NCBI RefSeq assembly: GCF_025698545.1
Contig: NC_068567.1
Location: forward strand, 60,710,705 to 60,774,704
Origin: Gossypium raimondii
Taxonomy: Eukaryota; Streptophyta; Magnoliopsida; Malvales; Malvaceae
Length of the DNA stretch: 64,000 nt
Direction: 5' to 3'
The number at the start of each line of letters is the position of its first letter. Position 1 is the first letter of the stretch. Positions 4,701-50,035 of this stretch are shown in pieces. The position numbers and the translations under genes are program-made. Below the pieces are notes generated by a model. The model did no database searches, was not told the DNA's origin, and saw only the letters and a list, made by a program, of their open reading frames with translations.

Positions 4701-6385
4701 AGTTCACGTGCTATCCGTGGTCAACGAATGTGAGCCGCTGATTTAGTAGAATTGTATTGAAGATCTTAATCGAACGGTAGGAAAATTCTTGTTTTTAAAT
4801 TGTTGTGTACGCTTTCACACTCCAGAATTCTATTATCCATTTATATTGTTCTACTGATCCAATAGCGGGATAATAACTTGACGATGATACCAATGCGTAA
4901 TTTACATCTAAGGCACTAAATTATTAGTAATTTTACGTTTTGGTCACTCAACTTCAAAAAGTTACAACATGATCACTAAATTATTTGAAAGCTTTCATTT
5001 TAAGTCACTGAATTATTCGAAAGTTTTTATTGAAGTCATTGGGTTGTTAAGTTTCTTTTTTTTTTAAGTCTGGTTAGTGAGGTTCAAGCGAAGATTCGAC
5101 AATTGGTTTGGTGGATCAATACCTATTGACAAGTAAAAGATATACCTTAAATCCAAGTCAATCAAATGGTTAGTGTCAGAGATTGGAGAAGAAAACTGTT
5201 TGAATTTTGGTTCGTAGATTTGAGACGTTTAAAGTTGTTTCATGAAAAAAGAACTGAATTATAGAAGAGAAGGGGATTGAGAGCTTTCAATTGGTGTAGG
5301 TGGTGCGAATAAAGATATAAACATACTAATAATTCAATAACATTGGGTGTAATTTACCTTAAATTTAATTATAAAAAGATATAAACTTTTATCTTTTTAA
5401 AAAGTAAACATTTTGTGAGTTGAGTCGGGTCACATGCGAATCTGGACTTGAAAATTTATTAAAATCAAGTATTACTTTGACTGAGTTTAGTTCGGCCTAT
5501 GAATGTTTCTAGCAAAATAAATGGGTGAAGATCCCTAGGAAAATAGATCATTAAAAAATCATGAAAATAAAAATATTTAAATAATTGAGAAAACTAGTTC
5601 AATCGGTCAGTATTGATTCACAGGTCAATCGATTCAACCCTTGTCTCTGGACAAGTACCCCCGTCTAATTTTCAGTCCAATTGGTCGATCTAGTTTTAAA
5701 AATACTAATTTTGATTGATGAAATAACTTTTTTAATCCCACCAAGTCGAGCAAACAAGTGGTGAAGTTCAAAAATAGAATTAATCGCTAGCGTCTTGACC
5801 TCAAGAAGAAAAAAATCGAGTATTATCGATATTACTAAATATTATAAAGGGAGACAAAAAAAAATAAAGAGAGAAAATAAAAGAATTAAAATAGTTTGTA
5901 GGTGTAATTAAAATAGTTTGCAGCTAATATAAAAAATTAGTTACATAAGATAGTTTTGATAATGAAAGGATCTGATTGATATAATATCGATAGTTTGTAG
6001 ATGTAATTAAAATATTTTAAAGTCTAAGAACTAGTTTAGAATAAGGGTTATAGTTTGGGGATGTCTAGAGCAATTTACTATTATTATTATTATTTAACCT
6101 TTTAGAATTAAAAGAGATTCAATGACAATGGCTGGAGAAAGAAGTACAGAAATGGTGAAAGGAAATCATTAAAAATAATCTGCAATATACATAAAAGACA
6201 ATAAATCTAAAGGCATTGTGTATGCTTTAGTTTAAACAAGACTACTAAATATAAATGAGTAAATATTTTGTGATCTCCCTTAATTTGTTTTTTATGTCAT
6301 TAAAAACCAGTAGAAGTATTTTTCATCCATTGCAGACTTGGTTTTAGCTTTCTCCTCCATGACCAAGGAGGAAATCCATTGCTTC
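4701..6385. other. Intergenic spacer with MITE copy A and AT-rich decay
   Basis: Between the PTEN2 leader and the protease stop codon. It holds one copy of a dispersed MITE (listed separately at 4910-5360). A stretch near 5590-5700 is rich in GATTCAATCGGTCA-like words that recur, diverged, near 29980-30240. The rest is AT-rich with no coding signal. The protease 3' UTR must lie just left of 6386. Confidence 0.6.
4910..5360. repeat. Dispersed MITE family 1, copy A
   Basis: It begins with a GTTTTGGTCACTCAACTT-type arm and has a core reading GATTCGACAATTGG, then AATCCAAGTCAATC, then GAGATTGGAGAAGAAAA. The same order recurs at 11940-12595, 26725-27240 and 48987-50035. The right arm here is eroded. 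No ORF lies inside. Confidence 0.7.
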
Positions 6386-8716
<2,331 letters not shown>

Positions 8717-10139: not shown

Positions 10140-10640
10140 TCGACTCCTACTTAGACTTGTTCATGGGTTAGGCTGCCCAATACGGCCGGAATGCCCGTCC
10201 GAAAAGTGGGAAGATTTGAGCAAAAAAATAAAGCCCAAACCGAATTAGCTAAAAGGCTAAAAAATATGTTATTTTATTGTTGTTTTCTCACTATTTTGCT
10301 ACAATTTCACTATTATGTTACTACTATTTTGTTGTTATTGTTTAGATATTATATAACTATTGTTTTATTGTTAATTTTATTATTATGTTAGAAAAACCCG
10401 TTTAAAAAGTGGGTCGGACCTCAAGTAATTTTTTTGCTCATGCCCAGCCCAAATTTTCAATAAAAAACTTTGCTATTTTTGTTGCTATTTTTTCATGTTT
10501 TGTTGTTGTTTTCCCACTTTTTGTCACCGTTTTACTACCATTTCACTATTATGTTGTTAATGTTTGAATATTGTATAATATTTATTTTATTGTTAATTTT
10601 ACTACTATTTTATAGGCATTTATTTTTTAAATTTTACATA
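10140..10640. repeat. Degenerate transposon fragment with two internal copies of a T-rich unit
   Basis: It starts with a TTCATGGGTTAGGCTGCCC-like word shared with the GGGCC-type dispersed repeats. It then has two diverged copies (about 10265-10385 and 10465-10620) of a T-rich unit containing ATTTCACTATTATGTT and TTTTATTGTTAATTTTA. A GTGGGTCGGACCTC word separates them. Non-coding. Confidence 0.55.
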
Positions 10641-10689
10641 AAAAGATAAAAATAACTATGAAATAATATTTAACCCTTGTAAAAGTAAA

Positions 10690-11178
10690 AGGTTTTTAGA
10701 AAATTCACAACTAAATTGGGACTCGGTTGAGGGTACACTAGATAAAATTTCATGTGATTCAGTAAACAGAATAAAAATTCAATTCCATCATTATTAGATT
10801 GATTCGTAGGATTCGATAAAGAATGAGAAAAGAATGGGATTTTTTTGAGAAATGAGAAATTCAAAATGCTCGGGGATGAAAATGGGGAAATGTCTACAAT
10901 ACTTGGGTTGAATCAGATACAATTTGAAGGATTTTGTGTGTTCATGGATCGGGGCTTAACAGAAGAACTTTATAAGTTTTCAAAAATTGAAGATACAGAG
11001 CAAGAAATTGAATTTCAATTATTTGTGGAAACATATCAATTGGTGGAACCGTTGATAAAAGAAAGGGATATTGTATATGAATCACTCACATATTCTTCTA
11101 AATTATATGTATCCACAGGATTAATTTGAAAAACCAGTAAAGATATACAAGAACAAACCATTTTTAATGGAAACATTC
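10690..11178 (+). pseudogene. rpoB: Nuclear copy of plastid rpoB 5' end (NUPT)
   Basis: From the ATG at 10866 the frame reads [20 protein letters not shown], then [43 protein letters not shown] and [18 protein letters not shown]. That is the N-terminus of the plastid RNA polymerase beta subunit, as in cotton-type plastomes. The frame then hits TGA where Trp is expected. The homology continues through KTSKDIQEQTIFNGNI to about 11178 and stops. The preceding 170 bp look like the plastid rpoB leader. Apparent differences from the plastid gene include Pro to Ser, Glu to Lys, Ala to Thr and Trp to stop, all explicable by C-to-T or G-to-A changes. That pattern is expected for methylated, deaminating nuclear copies. 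It is a fragment of a gene of about 1070 codons and is not functional. Confidence 0.85.
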
Positions 11179-14094
11179 TCGAACTTTAAAGAATAGTATA
11201 AATATAAAAACAATATATATTAAATTATTTATGCTTAAAAATGTGATAAAATACAAAATGTTATCAAATGATTAAATTTTAAATAATGAATAAATATATT
11301 TAAATTTATCAAGATTTTGATAAATTTTAAAACTTATATTTTGATTTAATCCGAGCTTAACAATTATGTATAGATTGGTTTTCAAAAAAAAAGTTAAATG
11401 TAATTTTTCTTCTAAATTTCGTACCTATATTTTTTAATTTACTTTTGTACCTAAAACCAATTAATTATAATAAAAATAAATTTAAAGAGAATCCACATAT
11501 TTACATAGATCTTAGTGGAGGATTTAATTCCTTTTTTCGAATTCTAATTATGCATCTTTTAATTTTAATTAAATTTATTTTTTTCAAAATTTTATTAATC
11601 TCGTAAAAAATTAAAATTTTATTTAAACCCCAAATTTTCATTTTCTTTTTAAAATTTTAAAATTTGTAATTAAATCCTTAATCTTAACCTTAAAATCCAA
11701 TTACGTTCAAACATGAAATCTTAAAATGATTGAAGTCTTAGTAGATTAATAGGTTGATTTGATGGGTATTTTTAAAGTTGGGTTATATAATTACAAGAAT
11801 ATTGATTGAATGGGATAAAGGTTGCTTAAGTATATCAACTTTTCTTTTGTGTTAAAGACGTTTTGCTTTTCAAACTTGAAAGTTGATAATACTAATTTTT
11901 ATTGTTTTAAAATTGTATACTACATCCTTTTGATTCGAGGTGTTTTTTTTCTTTTTAAATGTTTCGTTAGTGAGTTTTAAATGACGATTTCATGATTGAT
12001 ACGGTAGATCAATACTATCGACGAATAGCAGAATATATTTTAGATTCAAATTAATATAATGATTAGCATCAGAGATCGCAGAAAAAAATTATTTAAATTT
12101 TGGTTCATAGATTCATGATATACAAAGCAAGCCCAGCCTTGAGATAGTTTGTGAGTGCAGCCGCCTAAGGCTCAAAGTTGGAAGAGGCCCAAAAATAAAA
12201 TTTTCAACTTTTAACATGGAAAAAGAAAAGAAAAAAAAAAGGCCCCAAATTTGTTATTTTATTACTAGTATATGTTTCTATTTTATTGTATTACATTTTA
12301 TAATTTTTTTAAAAATAGGTCCCAATTTATTGTTTCGCCTAGAGTCTCAAAAATATCAAAAACAGGTTTGATCCAAAGCAGTTTTATGAAGAAAAAAAAC
12401 TGAACTATAAAAGATAAGGTAAAAAAGAGCTTATGATTGATGTAGACAGTACGAACAAAGAAAACCATATAATATCGATTTTAACAACTCAGTGATTTAA
12501 ATAAATAATTTTGAATGGCTCAGTGACTAAATTACTAGTTAAACGATTAAAATAAAATTTTACTCATAGATTAGTGTTTAACGACGAAGTTTACCCTTTT
12601 TTTTTTTCCCCTTTTTTAGAAATTAATCATTAAAAATAACTAATTAAACAACTAATGATTAAAGCAATACGCGTTTGACAACGGAAGGCTTTGTTATTTG
12701 TGTGAGAAAAAAGGAAGCCTCCGGTAAATAGTTTGTGATTATGATTATAATGATTATCAAATTAATTGACTTAATCCTAAAAAGGAAGCTTCCTATTTTC
12801 ACATTTCCAGTTAGTTAAATTTAGGTACATTTATTTAGCAAAATAATTATTATTGTCATGTGTAAAGTTGTTATTTAAATAGTAGCTGGACTTATTTAAC
12901 ATTCTAACATTGTCATAACTCAAACACGATATATCTGAATTGATTACAAGCGTTTAATATAATAAGAAAACTAACTCTGAATATTTCAAAGCGGCGAGCA
13001 AAAATCGACAAAAGAATCGGGTATTCATCAAACTAGAGAGGACGACGACAAAACTATCTCTAAAATCACTTGTAAAACTAAAAAACGTGTTATAAGAGCA
13101 GACGAAAACTTCTAAAACTGTAAAATTATTAAACAATAGAAAAACTAACAAAAAAATATAAAACTTAGACAACATTGTCCCAAATCGACTCGTGAAATAA
13201 TTTATTATTTTGAGATACTCTCAAAACAGAAACACATTAAGAAGCTGACGAAGGGCCACCCACTTTCCAATAAAAATTATTGGTGGCCGGTGGAGTTTTA
13301 GCGAACGACAGGCGCTGTCATCTATCCATTACAACCTGTGAATACAACAAAGATACCCATAAAATAGATGTGTAAACTGAAAATAGAGAAGACATATGGA
13401 GTGAATGAGAAGAAGAAATAAAGAAAGGGTTAGTGGGAGAGAGAAAAAGACGGGCGATAACCAACCTAAAAACTGACACCACCGCTGGGTAAAACAAAAA
13501 ATAAGAAGCAAACAACTTGGAGAAAAAAGAGAGAAGTTTTTAAGGCTTTTTCACACATTATCTTGCCTTTATTTCTAAAAATTTAGTTATTTTATTTTTT
13601 AGATTTAAGATATACGAAAAGTATAAAGACTCATAACATATTTTAATATTTTTGTATTAAACATATTAAAGGTGAAAATAGATGAACAACATTTTAAGAA
13701 TCAGATCAATGATTAAATCAATTAAACTAATGAACATAAACACCAATCAATCGGTTTTACACAAATTCATCTCAATTTTTTAAATACTAAATCGTTGATT
13801 TTTAATTTAATCGATCATGTGCAAGCTGGGATGGGCTAACTTTGATCGGATGTTTGATGGTTACTACAGCAGTGAAGTTACCTTACCTAATTTTGCAACT
13901 GGAATGTCAGCCCAATTTATTGCTCACTTAATTCTCCCTTGTGCTCTGTTTTTTTTTCTTCAGTAATAACATGTTCTTCAAGCTTGACTTTTCTTAGTTA
14001 TGGTCTCCTTTTTTTCTTATCTATCTATCTGCCCCCTGCTGTATTAAACACCCTCTCGAGGATCTCGTGAACACAAGAAAAAGAACAGAAAAAA
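11179..14094. other. AT-rich spacer left of the first LRR gene
   Basis: Mostly very AT-rich decay with MITE family 1 copy B (listed separately). A short, less AT-rich patch at 13225-13330 holds an ATTGGTGGCCGGTGG word. No coding sequence is recognised. The right end, from about 13990, must contain the promoter and leader of the LRR gene; a clear TATA box is not seen. Confidence 0.5.
11940..12595. repeat. Dispersed MITE family 1, copy B, with a nested insertion
   Basis: It shares the family core (TTGATACGGTAGATCAATAC, AGCATCAGAGATCGCAGAA, TTTTGGTTCATAGATTC) and right arm (GGCTCAGTGACTAAATTACT). Compared with copies A and C, it is interrupted at 12129-12373 by 245 bp of unrelated sequence flanked by CAAAGC on both sides (12123-12128 and 12374-12379). 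Confidence 0.6.
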
Positions 14095-15642
14095 ATGCGT
14101 ACCCTTTTTTTATCATCTTCGTTTTTGTTGTTTTCAATCATTTTTCATCCATTTTCTGTTCACCATGTGGCTAGTGATCACGATCCAGTGATCAGGGGAA
14201 ACAGGGAAACGTTGGAAATAGCCAACGGCGGCGGTGGGAAAGTTCTTTCCCCTGAAACTTACAATGACAACTGTCCTCCCCCACCTCCTAAACCTGAATG
14301 TCCACTTCCACCCCCGCCTCCACCTCCTCCCCCTCCTGTACCAAAATGTACACTTCCCCCACCTCCACCTCCACCTCCGCCTCCGCCTCCGCCTCCGCCT
14401 CCGCCTCCTGTACCAAAATGTACATTTCCCCCACCTCCACCTCCTCCTCCGCCACCACCTCCACCTCCTCCTCCGCCTCCTTGTAAGTTCAAGACAAAAA
14501 GCGGCTGCTTCAGAAACCAGCGGCTAGCAAAAACCCACGACGTGATCCAAACATTCAAGAGCAAAATCCTAGTCGACGACAACAGCAAAAAATACACAGA
14601 GACATGGCGAGGCACCGAGATTTGCAACTACAAAGGCTTCACGTGCGATATCCGTCCCGACGTGAACGAAACAGCCGTTGCTTCCGTCGATTTCAACGGC
14701 GCTAAATTTGCGGGGCCGAACGGTTATCTTCCCCTTGATGGCTTCATCGACAAGTTAGACGACTTAGCTATTTTCCATGCCAATTCAAACAACTTCACCG
14801 GCACCATCCCATACGAGGTCTCCAAAATCAAATACTTATACGAGCTCGATTTAAGCAACAATCAGTTGTCCGGTGATTTCCCGATGAACGTCCTTAAAGC
14901 CACCAACTTAACCTTTTTGGACTTACGGTTCAACTCCATTAAAGGTCTGGTTCCACAACAAGTTTTCAACTTAGACCTTGATGTTCTCTTCATCAACAAC
15001 AATAATTTCGAACAAAGACTCCCCGAGAATCTCGGTGACACACCGGTTTTATACCTCACTTTTGCAAACAACAAGTTCACCGGTCCGATTCCGACAAGCA
15101 TCGGCAAAGCACCCAACTTGCTCGAAGTGCTTTTTCTTAACAACAAACTTACTGGGTGTTTACCATATGAGATCGGCAACTTGAGTCAAGCCACCGTGTT
15201 CGACGTCGGGTCGAATAAGTTAACTGGTCCCATACCATACTCGTTTGGGTGTTTAAAAAAGATTGAGCTTCTCAACTTGGCCTGCAATGAATTCTACGGC
15301 GAAGTACCGGAAATCGTTTGTCAACTCAAAAATCTACAAAATTTGTCATTGTCATACAACTATTTCACTCAGGTTGGCCCAGCTTGTAGAGACTTGATAA
15401 TGAAGAAGAAACTTGATGTGAAAAACAACTGCATTTTGGACTTGCCGTTTCAAAGATCAGAAGCCGAATGCACTGCATTTTTCTCGAGAAATTTGTATTG
15501 CGATAGGAAAGATTCGTTTAAATGGGTTCCTTGCATGAAAGGTGGGTATAATAAATACAAGCATTCAAGCCCAGAATCAACAACGAGTTCTTCTTCACCA
15601 TCTGTGAGAACTTACAGCACCCTTATCCCGCACCGCTTGTGA
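14095..15642 (+). CDS. Secreted leucine-rich repeat protein with Cys-punctuated polyproline region (At4g06744-like / LRR-extensin-like)
   Basis: Intronless, 515 residues. Residues 1 to about 26 form a signal peptide. Residues about 60-130 are almost pure proline, broken by KPEC, VPKCTL, VPKCTF and a closing Cys. A plant LRR N-cap follows with RGTEICNYKGFTC. About ten LRRs of the LxxLxLxxNxLxGxIP type follow (for example YLYELDLSNNQLSGDFP and LEVLFLNNKLTGCLP). A Cys-rich C-terminal cap carries CILDLPFQRSEAEC. There is no membrane segment after the signal peptide and no kinase, so it is probably an apoplastic wall protein. LRX proteins carry the extensin part C-terminal to the LRRs with Ser-Pro4 repeats. 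Here the prolines are N-terminal and lack SPPPP. Its homologue is at 27515. The exact role is unknown. Confidence 0.88.
   Translation: MRTLFLSSSFLLFSIIFHPFSVHHVASDHDPVIRGNRETLEIANGGGGKVLSPETYNDNCPPPPPKPECPLPPPPPPPPPPVPKCTLPPPPPPPPPPPPPPPPPPVPKCTFPPPPPPPPPPPPPPPPPPCKFKTKSGCFRNQRLAKTHDVIQTFKSKILVDDNSKKYTETWRGTEICNYKGFTCDIRPDVNETAVASVDFNGAKFAGPNGYLPLDGFIDKLDDLAIFHANSNNFTGTIPYEVSKIKYLYELDLSNNQLSGDFPMNVLKATNLTFLDLRFNSIKGLVPQQVFNLDLDVLFINNNNFEQRLPENLGDTPVLYLTFANNKFTGPIPTSIGKAPNLLEVLFLNNKLTGCLPYEIGNLSQATVFDVGSNKLTGPIPYSFGCLKKIELLNLACNEFYGEVPEIVCQLKNLQNLSLSYNYFTQVGPACRDLIMKKKLDVKNNCILDLPFQRSEAECTAFFSRNLYCDRKDSFKWVPCMKGGYNKYKHSSPESTTSSSSPSVRTYSTLIPHRL
14278..14485 (+). repeat. CCN trinucleotide repeat tract coding polyproline
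   Basis: An imperfect CCT/CCA/CCG tract inside the LRR gene, in three blocks of roughly 10, 18 and 18 prolines separated by near-identical TGTACCAAAATGTACA spacers. The repeated spacer suggests growth by unequal duplication. It is length-variable by nature. Confidence 0.85.
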
Positions 15643-16261: not shown

Positions 16262-17015
16262 AAATAGTTATTTTTGTTTACCTCAGACTATATTTTAGTC
16301 ATTTATATTATCTCGTTGTAATATTTTAGTCACTGCATCGTTAATGACATAACATTATAACAATAAGCTGACGTGTCACGTTAAATCATCATTTCAAATA
16401 AGATATTTAGGTTAATTTGTACAATCAATCCCCATATTTTTTTCGTTTTGAGTAATTTAATTTTTTTTCTTTTATGTTCTTTTAACTTTCTTTTTTTTTA
16501 ATTTTTCGTTCTCTTCTGCTTCTTCCTCTATTCTCCTCCTTCTCCATTTCTTTTAACATATTTTTTTTTATGTTTTCCATTTGTTAAAACCAGTCCCTGT
16601 ACTTTTATTTTTTTGAACAATTTAATTTTTTTCAAATGAGGCGAGCTTGCCTTGTGGAATAGTTTTAACAATTGGGAAACATATAAAAACTACGTTAAAA
16701 GAAATGAATAAGGGAGGAAAACAGAGGGAGAAGCAGAAAAGAATGAAAAAAAAAAGTTAAAAGAACATAAAAGGAAAAAAATTAAATTGCCCAAAATGAA
16801 AAAAAAAATATAGGGACCAATGGCAGAATTTAACATAAAATTTTCATTTGAAATGATGATTTAACTTACCACTAAACTGTGGCTAAAATGTTACAACACG
16901 AAAACGTGACTAAAACGTTATAACACGAAAACATGACTAAAACGTAAGATTTCAAACATAAGTGACTAAAATGTAACTTGAGGCAAGCAAAAGTAATTAT
17001 TTTGATAATTTACCC
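16262..17015. repeat. Long hairpin (inverted-repeat) element of about 750 bp, MULE-MITE-like
   Basis: The left arm (TAGTTATTTTTGTTTACCTC, then TTTAGTCATTTATATTATC) is the inverse of the right arm (AAGTGACTAAAATGTAACTT, then AAGCAAAAGTAATTATTTTG). The inner arms also pair: TTTTATGTTCTTTTAACTTT on the left with AAAGTTAAAAGAACATAAAA on the right. There is no ORF. The end sequences resemble the compact element at 47802-48150. Confidence 0.7.
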
Positions 17016-17094
17016 ATAATTAAAATATGTTACAAAATAAAAAAGAACATCAACATGTTATAAGTATAATAATATCGTAACATCTATGTCGAAA

Positions 17095-26724: not shown

Positions 26725-27240
26725 ATAATTAAATTATTAGTGAGATTATATTTTGGTCACTCAATTTTAAAGAGTTATAAAATGATTATTAAATTATTCG
26801 AAAGTTTTCATTTAAGTTATTGAATTAATCGAAAGTTTTTATTCAAATCATTGGACTGTTAAGGTTTTTTTTTAAGTCCGACTCGCGAGCTCCAAGTGGT
26901 GATTCGACGATTGGTACGGTGGATTAGTACCCATATTCAACGAGTAGAAGAGCATATCTTAAATCCAAGTCGATCTGATGGTCAGTATCAGAGATAGGAG
27001 AAGAAAGTTTTTTGGATTTTGGTTCACAAATTCGTGACGTTCAAAGTTGTTTCATAGAAAAAAAATGAATTGCAAAAAAGAAGAACGAGAACTTCCGATT
27101 GATGGAGACAATCGAACAAAGAAGACCATATAGCAACGATTCTAATAGCTCAATGACTTAAATAAAAACTTTCAAATAGTTCAATAATCATTTTATAACT
27201 TTTTAAAATTGAGGTACCAAAACGTTAAAAGTAGATTAAA
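26725..27240. repeat. Dispersed MITE family 1, copy C (best preserved)
   Basis: The left arm TTTTGGTCACTCAATTTTAA and GTTATAAAATGATTATTAAA inverts as the right arm AATCATTTTATAACTTTTTA and AAAATTGAGGTACCAAAACG. The core holds GATTCGACGATTGGTACGG and AAATCCAAGTCGATCTGATG. It has no ORF. It lies about 275 bp upstream of the second LRR gene. Confidence 0.72.
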
Positions 27241-27514: not shown

Positions 27515-28756
27515 ATGGAAATTTTAACTTACAATACCATTTCCTTTCTATTCCTTTACTTTTTCGTCTCCGTTTTATGCCAGAATGGTTCCGATATCAG
27601 CCCGATAAGTTCGCCGTCACCATTTGGTGTCTCGACTAAACAGTTAATCTTTAAAGACCGGAGACTGGCCGTTGTTTACCCTATAATCCAAGCGTTCAAG
27701 GCAACCATCACGGAAGATCCACTTAACCGGACTGGAAATTGGGTTGGAGGTGACATATGTAACTACACGGGCTTTTACTGTGATAACCCGCCTGATAACT
27801 TGTCCGCCATTGCCCTCGCCGGCATTGACTTCAATGGTTTCTTGTTAGGTGCACCGACTCTCGAAGGTTTCATCGATAAGTTGCCGGACCTTGCTATCTT
27901 CCATGCAAACTCCAACAAGTTTGCCGGGTCCATACCAGACGTCTCGCAGCTCAAGTACTTTTATGAGTTGGACGTAAGTAACAATGTGCACGCCGGTACA
28001 TTTCCGATGACGGTCATTGGCGTAAAAGATTTGTCGTTTGTAGACATCCGTTTTAATCTATTCTCCGGTTCGGTCCCTCCCGAAATTTTCAACCAAGCAC
28101 TCGAAGTACTCTTCATTAACAACAATGATTTCACCGCCAAACTACCGGAAAACTTCGGTTCAACACCGGTTCGTTACCTCACTTTGGCTAACAACAAGTT
28201 AACCGGTTCGATCCCACGAAGTATCGGCAACCTCAACATGACATTGATCGAAGTACTACTGCTGAACAACAAGTTAACAGGTTGTCTTCCTTACGAAGTA
28301 GGGTTTTTAAAAGAACTCAAGCTCTTTGACGTTGAAGACAACCTTTTAACGGGTCCATTGCCATGTTCACTGTCCTGTTTGGACAAGATCGAGCTGCTCA
28401 ACTTGGCTAATAACCTGTTTTACTGGGAAGTGCCTGAAGAACTGTGTGCGCTTGTCAACTTGGAGAATTTGACGTTGTCGGGTAATTACTTCACTAAAGT
28501 TGGTCCTGCTTGCAGAAAGCTGATAAAAAATGGCATTCTTGACATGACACAGAACTGTGTCCCTGATCTTCCCCACCAAAGATCGTTGCTTGAATGCACA
28601 GAGTTCTACTTGAAGTACATTAGGTTTTGCCCGTACCCTGAGACGTATAAAATCATACCCTGCAAGGATGGTTATCACCATCATTGGGAAGGGTCCAAAG
28701 CCAAGACCATGAAAGCACCTGTTACTTACAAGACTCTTTCAAGACACAAGTTTTAA
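27515..28756 (+). CDS. Secreted leucine-rich repeat protein (At4g06744-like), no polyproline region
   Basis: Intronless, 413 residues. An N-terminal signal peptide (about 1-22, ending near VLCQ) is followed by a short Ser/Pro stretch, the LRR N-cap GGDICNYTGFYC, about ten LRRs (LFINNNDFTAKLPENFG, LLNNKLTGCLPYEVG) and a Cys-rich C-cap (CVPDLPHQRSLLEC). Segment by segment it matches the protein at 14095-15642, sharing DLAIFHANSN, NNKLTGCLPYE, KIELLNLA and VGPACR. It lacks that protein's polyproline block. There is no kinase or membrane anchor, so it is probably apoplastic. Wall or receptor-partner roles are plausible but unproven. Same strand as its homologue, so an old tandem duplication is likely. 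Confidence 0.88.
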   Translation: MEILTYNTISFLFLYFFVSVLCQNGSDISPISSPSPFGVSTKQLIFKDRRLAVVYPIIQAFKATITEDPLNRTGNWVGGDICNYTGFYCDNPPDNLSAIALAGIDFNGFLLGAPTLEGFIDKLPDLAIFHANSNKFAGSIPDVSQLKYFYELDVSNNVHAGTFPMTVIGVKDLSFVDIRFNLFSGSVPPEIFNQALEVLFINNNDFTAKLPENFGSTPVRYLTLANNKLTGSIPRSIGNLNMTLIEVLLLNNKLTGCLPYEVGFLKELKLFDVEDNLLTGPLPCSLSCLDKIELLNLANNLFYWEVPEELCALVNLENLTLSGNYFTKVGPACRKLIKNGILDMTQNCVPDLPHQRSLLECTEFYLKYIRFCPYPETYKIIPCKDGYHHHWEGSKAKTMKAPVTYKTLSRHKF

Positions 28757-30518
28757 GGTTTATGTTTTTTTTTCCTTTGTTTTTACTAATATGGGTTAAT
28801 ATTTGATGTATCTTTAATGCATAAGTTTTATTTGTTATCGGTGAAAACGATATTTCATCATTAGTAAAATAAAAAAATATAGAAAAATTATAAATAAATA
28901 CTAATAATTTTATTTAAATATAACCCCAAAACCCTAAACTTAAAATATGAAAGATGGTATAAATTCTAAACCCTAAACTCAAACTTTAAACCCAATAAGT
29001 AATATAAACCCTAAATCCAAAACCAAAAGAAAAATATAATAATTATAATTAATTTTTAATTACGATTTATCATATCTGCTCATACAATATTTAGAACTAT
29101 TCATAGTTATAAGAGATACTGCGCTTCAGTGTACTCAAACCCACATACTCCTGCACTGACAACATACCGATGCTAGTTGAACTATTTAATATATTTATTT
29201 GTTAAGATTTTTTAAAAAGAATTTAAATTGAACTGTTTATTTTCCCAATATTGGTCTACCTTTTAACTTTTTATATGAAAGAAAATGTATTAGTGTTGAG
29301 TAGAAAAACATTATGATTAAGTTTTATTTTTGACCTACTTATCGTTAATTCAGTTAATTTATGTAATCATTTTTAAAATACAATACTCGATAAAATTCGA
29401 ATTTAAAAGTTAACAAATGTTAAAATTGTCAAAAATATAAACAATCTCTTTATTAAACAATAATCATAAGGGTTGTAATGTTGTCAACTTGGATTGTAAT
29501 GTTGTTCTCCACTAATGTGGGGGGAAAAGTGGCTGCTCATTAGGCTGAGGTAATCATTTGATCATGATATCTTCATGAAAGATATATAAATTAAGATATT
29601 TTTCATATTCGTTTTATGAATTATAAAAATATTTTTTAAAAATTTATGATTATTCATTTTAATAATATTATTTTTAAATATTTAAATTTAAATTTTTTAT
29701 TAAAAATATAATGTACCTTACTACTACTCATCGAAAAAGGATAATAGAAAATGGGCAAATTGCATTATTTTTAAATGACCTAACAAACAAGTAAAACCAA
29801 CCCTACTATAGGACTTGAGGTGGGGCCCATGATGAAAAGCCCAAATAAGAGGTGCTCAAAATTAACAATTAATGGCAATCCCATTGCCTAAGGGCTAAGG
29901 CCACTCAATTTATGCTCCTATCCTACTAGCTGTTGTCCTCCCAAATTCCTACTTGTATTCCATTTAGAAGGTTGTTGTAACTGGATTAATCAGTTAATCT
30001 GATTGGTTGGATGGAGAATCGATCAATTTATTAGTTCAAAGAAAGAAATTGAATTTATAAACTTGTGAACCGGGTTAAAAAATCAATTCAATCTATTTTT
30101 TTTTTACTTTTTTCTATATATTTTTTATTTCATGAATTTTTTAATAATTTATGAAATCAAATTTGATCAAATTGATTGAATCGATCAAATGAAGAATTTG
30201 CAGATTGGCTAATCCAATCACAAATTCGATTAAGGAAATTTTGGTTTTATCTCCTACTAAATAATTTCATCACTAACCAAATATCTAAAGTTTCAACCTA
30301 ACATTAATAAAAGTTTAATTACAACTATTTTCTCATTTTTATTGTTGAATAATTTTTTATAAATATATTTTAATATTAATTTTTCACTAAGTATAACATA
30401 ATTTATTATCTAAGGGAAAAAAAAACCAATGAAGCCTTCACATTGTTTAAAATTAAATTAAATTATAATGATGTGATATCATCTTTTTTATTAACAATGT
30501 ATAAATATATATGGTGGT
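28757..30518. other. 3' flank of the second LRR gene, AT-rich
   Basis: 3' UTR then decayed spacer. At 28925-29035 there are several degenerate AAACCCTAAAC-like words in a row. At 29980-30240 a diverged inverted stretch contains AATCAGTTAATCTGATTGG and later AGATTGGCTAATCCAATC. No genes seen. Confidence 0.5.
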
Positions 30519-47643: not shown

Positions 47644-47801
47644 TTTTGCATAATTATCCAAACAGAAGAAAAATATTTTTGTTCAAAAAATCATTTTATT
47701 TTTGTAAATCACTTCACGAATGTTGTTTTTAGTAAAATAAACACATCCTAATTAAAAATGTGAATATCGAGTAATTTATCAAATAATTATATTTTATTAA
47801 A

Positions 47802-48150
47802 GGGTAAACTACAAAAATAGTCACTTTTGTTTACTTCATATTACATTTTAGTCACTTATGTTTAAAATATTACGTTTTAGTCACTTACGTTATCGTTTTT
47901 TTACAAAGTAGTCACTCTACATTAAACTTCGTTAACTCCCTAATGGCAGTCCAAATGAGTCTAAATTGGCAATTAAAACCCATTTGGACTCCCACATAGG
48001 ACTATCATTAGGGAGATAATGGGGTTTAACGGTAAAGTGATCACTTAGTAACAAAACGATAATGTAAGTGACTAAAACGTAACATTTCAAACATAAGTAA
48101 CTAAAATATAATTTGTGGCAAACAAAAGTGACTATTTTTATAATTTATCC
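47802..48150. mobile_element. MULE-type MITE, 349 bp, with 9-bp target duplication
   Basis: It starts GGGTAAACTACAAAAATAGT and CACTTTTGTTTACTTC. It ends GGCAAACAAAAGTGACTATT and TTTATAATTTATCC, so the arms are inverted. TTTATTAAA stands directly outside both ends (47793-47801 and 48151-48159). A 9-bp duplication is typical of Mutator-like elements. It has no coding capacity. Confidence 0.78.
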
Positions 48151-48159
48151 TTTATTAAA

Positions 48160-48986: not shown

Positions 48987-50035
48987 GGGTAAACTACACT
49001 TAAGGTTACTAAACTATTAGTAAGTTTATGTTTTTGTTACTCAACTTCAAGAAGTTACAAAATGGTCATTGAACCATTCACAAAATTTTATTTAAGTCAC
49101 TAGGTTTTTAAGTTTTTGTTTTTATTCTTAAAGTCTAACTAACAAGCTTCAAACAATGATTCGATGACCGATACGATGGACCAGTACCCATTGACAAGTA
49201 GATGAATATATTTTAAATTCAAATTGATATGGTGATTAGTGCCGGAGATCAGAGAATAAAATTATTTGGATTTTATTGACAGATTTGTGAAGTTAAAATT
49301 TATTCATGAAAAAAAAAGGTAAAAATTTCTCCCCAGTCCCTCTCAATTATGATATTGAACAAGTTGGTCTGTCTCAAAAAAATCATAGCAATTTAATCCC
49401 TGTCAATTTTGAAAGCGAGCAACTAAGGACAATTAATCACAACATTAATGTTTTTCGTCAATTTTACATGTATTTGACTGGTATAATAACAATTAGCTGT
49501 TCTAGTTTACAAATTCTATCATTTAGGTCATGATTTAACAATTTTATCCCGCAATATATTTGTAAATGTGTAAATATCGAGACTAAATTTGTTGAAACTT
49601 TTTAAAATCAATACCAATTTAATAAAATATGTAAGCTTTGAGGGCTAAATTTGTTAGTACATCAATCAAAATTATGCACAATTGACAAAAGATATTAACA
49701 CCATAATTAATTGTTCTTAATTACTCACTTTAAAAATTGACAGGGATGAAACTGTTCCAATTTTTTTAGAGGGACTAGTTTGCTTAATGTCAAAATTGGG
49801 AGGGATTGAAGATGCATTTTTATTGAAAAACTAAACTATAAAAGAGAAGGGGATGGAGAGTTTTCGATTAGTGTAGGCAATGCAAATAGAAAAGGGCATA
49901 TAATAACGATTTTAATAACCTAATGACTTAAATGAAAACTTACAAATAGTTTAGTGACAATTTTATAATTTTTTTAAATTTAATAATTAAAACATAAACT
50001 TACTAATAATTTAGTTAACTCGGCTGAAGTTTACC
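48987..50035. repeat. Dispersed MITE family 1, copy D, carrying a second MITE inside it
   Basis: Ends: GGGTAAACTACACTTAAGG on the left and the inverse CGGCTGAAGTTTACC on the right. Core words match copies A to C (GATTCGATGACCGATACG). It is split at about 49315-49800 by another inverted-repeat element. Its right end is about 560 bp upstream of the PABP start codon. Confidence 0.7.
49315..49800. mobile_element. Nested MITE inside copy D
   Basis: Its left arm (CCCCAGTCCCTCTCAATTAT, ATCCCTGTCAATTTTGAAAG, ACTAAGGACAATTAATC) is the inverse of the right arm (TTAATTGTTCTTAATTACTC, TTAAAAATTGACAGGGATG, CAAAATTGGGAGGGATTGAA). Removing it rejoins the family-1 sequence seen uninterrupted in copy A (CATGAAAAAAGAACTGAA). 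No coding capacity. Confidence 0.72.

Follow-up and report, generated by a model that had tools for sequence, protein, structure and literature searches.

We identify a decayed piece of the plastid rpoB gene in the 64-kb window, the whole stretch of Gossypium raimondii DNA analysed here, and conclude that it is almost certainly an ordinary, non-functional nuclear plastid DNA insertion (NUPT). The original prediction had described it in the same way, as a decayed rpoB NUPT, and this reading is borne out by matches to plastid protein and DNA, the nuclear-type genes around it, a stop codon, residues unique to it and an over-representation of C>T/G>A in its polarised changes. Using as DNA reference a piece of plastome designated L001, we delineated the following features:

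10739-11178, plus strand: predicted NUPT comprising plastid rpoB leader and the first 104 rpoB codons (blastn to L001; resampling control)
10739-10865, plus strand: part of the rpoB 5' leader / trnC-rpoB spacer (Smith-Waterman score 84 against L001 4866-5000)
10866-11177, plus strand: rpoB codons 1-104, a truncated pseudogene without frameshift (phmmer with plastid RpoB chains; tblastn with the L001 RpoB)
11127-11129, plus strand: in-frame TGA at the conserved Trp88 (TGG in L001)
11178-11179, no strand: 3' junction, the L001 match stopping within codon 105
10690-10738, no strand: stretch originally claimed as leader, with no above-chance match to L001

The reference L001 (CAMUZI010000007.1, 17355-27666) emerged from a pattern search of genome contigs, in which one of 71 pattern matches was confirmed, and covers 10.3 kb of a contig of 43 kb that is assigned to an uncultured Clostridia MAG. 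It codes for a full-length RpoB of 1070 amino acids, which matches the plastid RpoB in PDB end to end, and displays tRNA genes for Glu, Tyr and Asp upstream of rpoB, plus one for Cys on the other strand, as well as an ORF at 8240, after rpoB, which we take to be the likely start of rpoC1. Judged by this gene content L001 is plant plastid DNA, and because of that content its contig is taken to be a contaminant of the MAG, so that a GTDB-set genome appears to be contaminated with plant plastid DNA. A search for a closer plastome recovered no relative among plasmids (distant mode), E. coli genomes (near mode), viral contigs or, with the L001 DNA as query, phages (near mode).

The ATG at 10866 opens a frame of 87 codons (10866-11126) that is closed by a TGA. 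When this TGA is taken as Trp, the translation matches residues 1-104 of plastid RpoB without a gap, in agreement with the proposal that the translation from 10866 corresponds to the beginning of RpoB. In a phmmer search of PDB the best match of this translation was plastid RpoB (E-value = 1.3e-50), and the next group of matches, presumably cyanobacterial, began at an E-value of 5.1e-9. Likewise, a tblastn search of the window with the whole L001 RpoB recovered residues 1-104 (78.8%, E-value = 2.1e-43) and no second RpoB place below an E-value of 6. Codon 88, the TGA of the window, is Trp in all four plastid references compared. The fragment falls short of a full-length rpoB frame, with the stop at codon 88 and homology ending after codon 104. 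Pfam searches returned Rpb2_1 below the cut-off (E-value = 0.007 with the stop read through, 0.36 without) and, with the stop not read through, RA_2 (E-value = 0.17), also below the cut-off; we take the weakness of these matches to reflect the shortness of the N-terminal piece.

At the DNA level, a plastome match was obtained: blastn aligned 10739-11178 to L001 4866-5313 with 434 bits and an E-value of 1.4e-122, all the gaps falling in the leader and none in the 104 codons. Identical columns numbered 368 of 452 (81.4%), a figure that mixes plastid divergence with decay because L001 is another plant's plastome. As a control we prepared 200 first-order Markov resamples of 10600-11300; every one of these gave some match to L001 at an E-value of up to 10, the best of them scoring 41.9 bits against the 434 observed. 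A second match to L001 in the window (30336-30409; 41.0 bits) was dismissed as chance, since the resamples reach 41.9 bits. Together, the protein and DNA matches show the plastid origin of the fragment.

The two edges of the fragment are resolved to different degrees. The leader at 10739-10865 aligned to the DNA upstream of the L001 rpoB with a Smith-Waterman score of 84, which none of 500 shuffles attained. Thus, of the 170 bp claimed as rpoB leader in the original prediction about 127 bp are substantiated, and the full length is not, on L001 alone: both 10690-10738 and the longer stretch 10640-10738 scored at chance level against L001 (198 and 242 of 500 shuffles, respectively, scoring as high or higher). 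The proposed start at 10690 is accordingly not confirmed, as nothing before 10739 matches L001 above chance; the true 5' junction may nonetheless lie somewhat upstream of 10739, given that L001 comes from another plant and plastid spacers diverge fast. The 3' junction could be placed: the last homologous base, 11178, is the first base of codon 105, and the flank at 11179-11300 is shuffle-like when compared with the continuing rpoB of L001 (147 of 500 shuffles as high or higher).

The fragment had also been described as lying between decayed, AT-rich repeats. This is partly supported: an AT-rich unit of about 119 bp is duplicated in the 5' flank (10272-10390 and 10498-10612; 77% identical), and a repeat that recurs at three further sites of the window begins about 760 bp past the 3' edge (11942-12113). 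The four copies of this dispersed repeat (5051-5220, 11942-12113, 26901-27046 and 49116-49274), of which the one at 11942 is 72.5-74.6% identical to the other three, perhaps represent an old transposable element. Elsewhere in the window we observed a MITE-like inverted repeat (47793-48159) with 128-nt arms that are 86% complementary and separated by 111 nt, and a related copy at 16934-17028.

To characterize the surroundings of the fragment, 8 of the 15 listed ORFs of the window were scanned against Pfam, of which seven gave a match at an E-value of 1e-5 or better and one gave none. Two minus-strand ORFs (6562-8386) code for a papain-like protease with a granulin domain, the gene being divided over them as by introns; two further regions code for LRR proteins (14095-15639 and 27515-28753), and the remaining Pfam-matched genes code for an IRX15-like protein, an RRM protein and a RINGv protein. 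The rpoB fragment is flanked by the protease gene and the first LRR gene. The flanks and the window were compared with the 10.3 kb of L001, the sole plastome used, and the flanks showed no above-chance match to it. These plant nuclear-type genes, one of them split, together with flanks unlike the L001 plastome, show a nuclear setting for the fragment, as had been proposed.

We then examined the decay of the fragment using an alignment of its translation with L001 and three plastid RpoB chains from PDB. Over the 104 residues the window carries 14 residues found in its row only, with the other four in agreement, as against 4, 0, 4 and 4 in L001 and the three PDB chains (binomial relative-rate p = 0.03 for 14 vs 4, e.g. 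against L001, and 1e-4 for 14 vs 0). The codons at which the window departs from a residue common to all four plastid references form a polarised set of 14; their base differences number 22, of which 16 are nonsynonymous-type. A further 19 of the 33 differing codons were set aside, the change being silent, the window residue being shared with a reference, or the references being in disagreement. Among the 16 nonsynonymous-type changes 10 are C>T or G>A (7 G>A and 3 C>T), as read against L001, the sole DNA reference, the order of changes within multi-change codons being not known. The expected fraction is 0.106 under a uniform model (p = 7.7e-7) and 0.231 at a kappa of 4 (p = 8.5e-4). The four changes named at the outset, namely Pro to Ser (39), Glu to Lys (79), Ala to Thr (84) and Trp to stop (88), are all present, and each is C>T or G>A when read against L001. 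The claim of C-to-T and G-to-A decay stands for the polarised changes; the excess is weak when every one of the 43 differences between the 104 codons and L001 is counted unpolarised (19 C>T/G>A, 14 T>C/A>G and 10 transversions), a set that mixes both lineages.

With regard to sequence context, 4 of the 10 polarised C>T/G>A changes lie at CG/CHG sites, compared with 28 of 102 background positions (1 CG, 3 CHG and 6 CHH vs 12, 16 and 74), which gives no clear enrichment in a set as small as ten changes. CpG observed/expected ratios are 0.56 for the fragment and 0.74 for its L001 counterpart, based on only 5 and 8 CpGs. Among the window-unique residues, those at 5, 7, 8, 27 and 45, together perhaps with some at 25, may already exist in the cotton plastid RpoB, in which case the decay count would be lower; leaving out residues 5, 7, 8, 27 and 45, a hand count retains 11 changes, 8 of which are C>T/G>A, so that the bias would persist and the extent of decay would shrink. 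Two reports describe NUPTs as carrying more C>T/G>A changes than expected and link this to cytosine methylation (PMC6376042, PMC7037861). The fragment fits this published bias, and a preference for CpG/CHG sites is not seen on its ten changes.

These observations bear on three other explanations of the fragment. As plastid DNA is abundant in plant libraries, plastid reads might have been wrongly joined into a nuclear contig during assembly; yet an intact rpoB is what one would expect of genuine plastid DNA, and the stop at Trp88 and the 14 residues absent from four plastid RpoBs argue against such a chimera, as do the small size of the piece (only ~440 bp) and the end of L001 homology on both of its sides, which together leave it exceedingly improbable. 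A frame that runs uninterrupted from the native ATG as far as codon 88, without frameshift, could instead be thought to reflect a nuclear-transcribed, putative short RpoB N-terminal peptide, encoded by the 87-codon ORF (10866-11126) and kept by selection. Such a frame needs no selection, since neutral change commonly leaves at most one stop (44-88% of neutral simulations with 10-25 substitutions), and residues common to all four plastid rows are altered; we regard a retained peptide as scarcely credible, and nothing about the fragment calls for a retained function.

Plant mitochondrial DNA also harbors plastid pieces, as in cotton mitochondria, for which ~13 kb of chloroplast insertions are described (PMC6852956). 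This raises the alternative that the window is mitochondrial DNA with a plastid insert (MTPT), or that the piece reached the nucleus through the mitochondrion. For plant mitochondrial DNA a G+C content closer to 45% is usual; the window has 33% G+C, its genes are of the nuclear type noted above, and it contains no tRNA detected by ARAGORN and no Rfam family at gathering score. On these grounds we consider this alternative very unlikely, although so short a piece could have been relayed through the mitochondrion.

Under the preferred interpretation as a NUPT, a short piece of plastid DNA, comprising rpoB leader and 104 codons, would have been inserted into a chromosome of a plant nucleus, most likely when a double-strand break was repaired by end joining. 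The insertion would then have decayed without selection, acquiring the codon-88 stop and a set of substitutions with a C>T/G>A bias, a bias that is expected from deamination of methylated cytosine, if decay indeed followed a methylation-driven route. The fragment shows no sign of activity and is probably without function.

Comparison with plastid rpoB, the gene for the PEP beta subunit, places the fragment as having in common with it residues 1-104 along with some 127 bp of leader, and as differing from it in ending after codon 104, in its stop at codon 88 and in its location outside the plastome. Counterparts are known from cotton: according to PMC6852956, nearly every one of 78 plastid genes has been inserted into the nuclear DNA of one or more of four cotton species, and the nuclear rpoB is named as degraded in G. 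barbadense but intact in G. hirsutum. Like these Gossypium rpoB NUPTs, the fragment is plastid-derived, truncated, decayed and in nuclear DNA, and we see no difference of substance between the fragment and the copies as described there. The fragment is a common sort of genomic fossil that belongs to a well-known class, at an ordinary locus, and its value is as one more data point for NUPT decay; NUPT pieces of this kind, if mistaken for plastid DNA, can mislead plastome assembly and plastid-based phylogeny.
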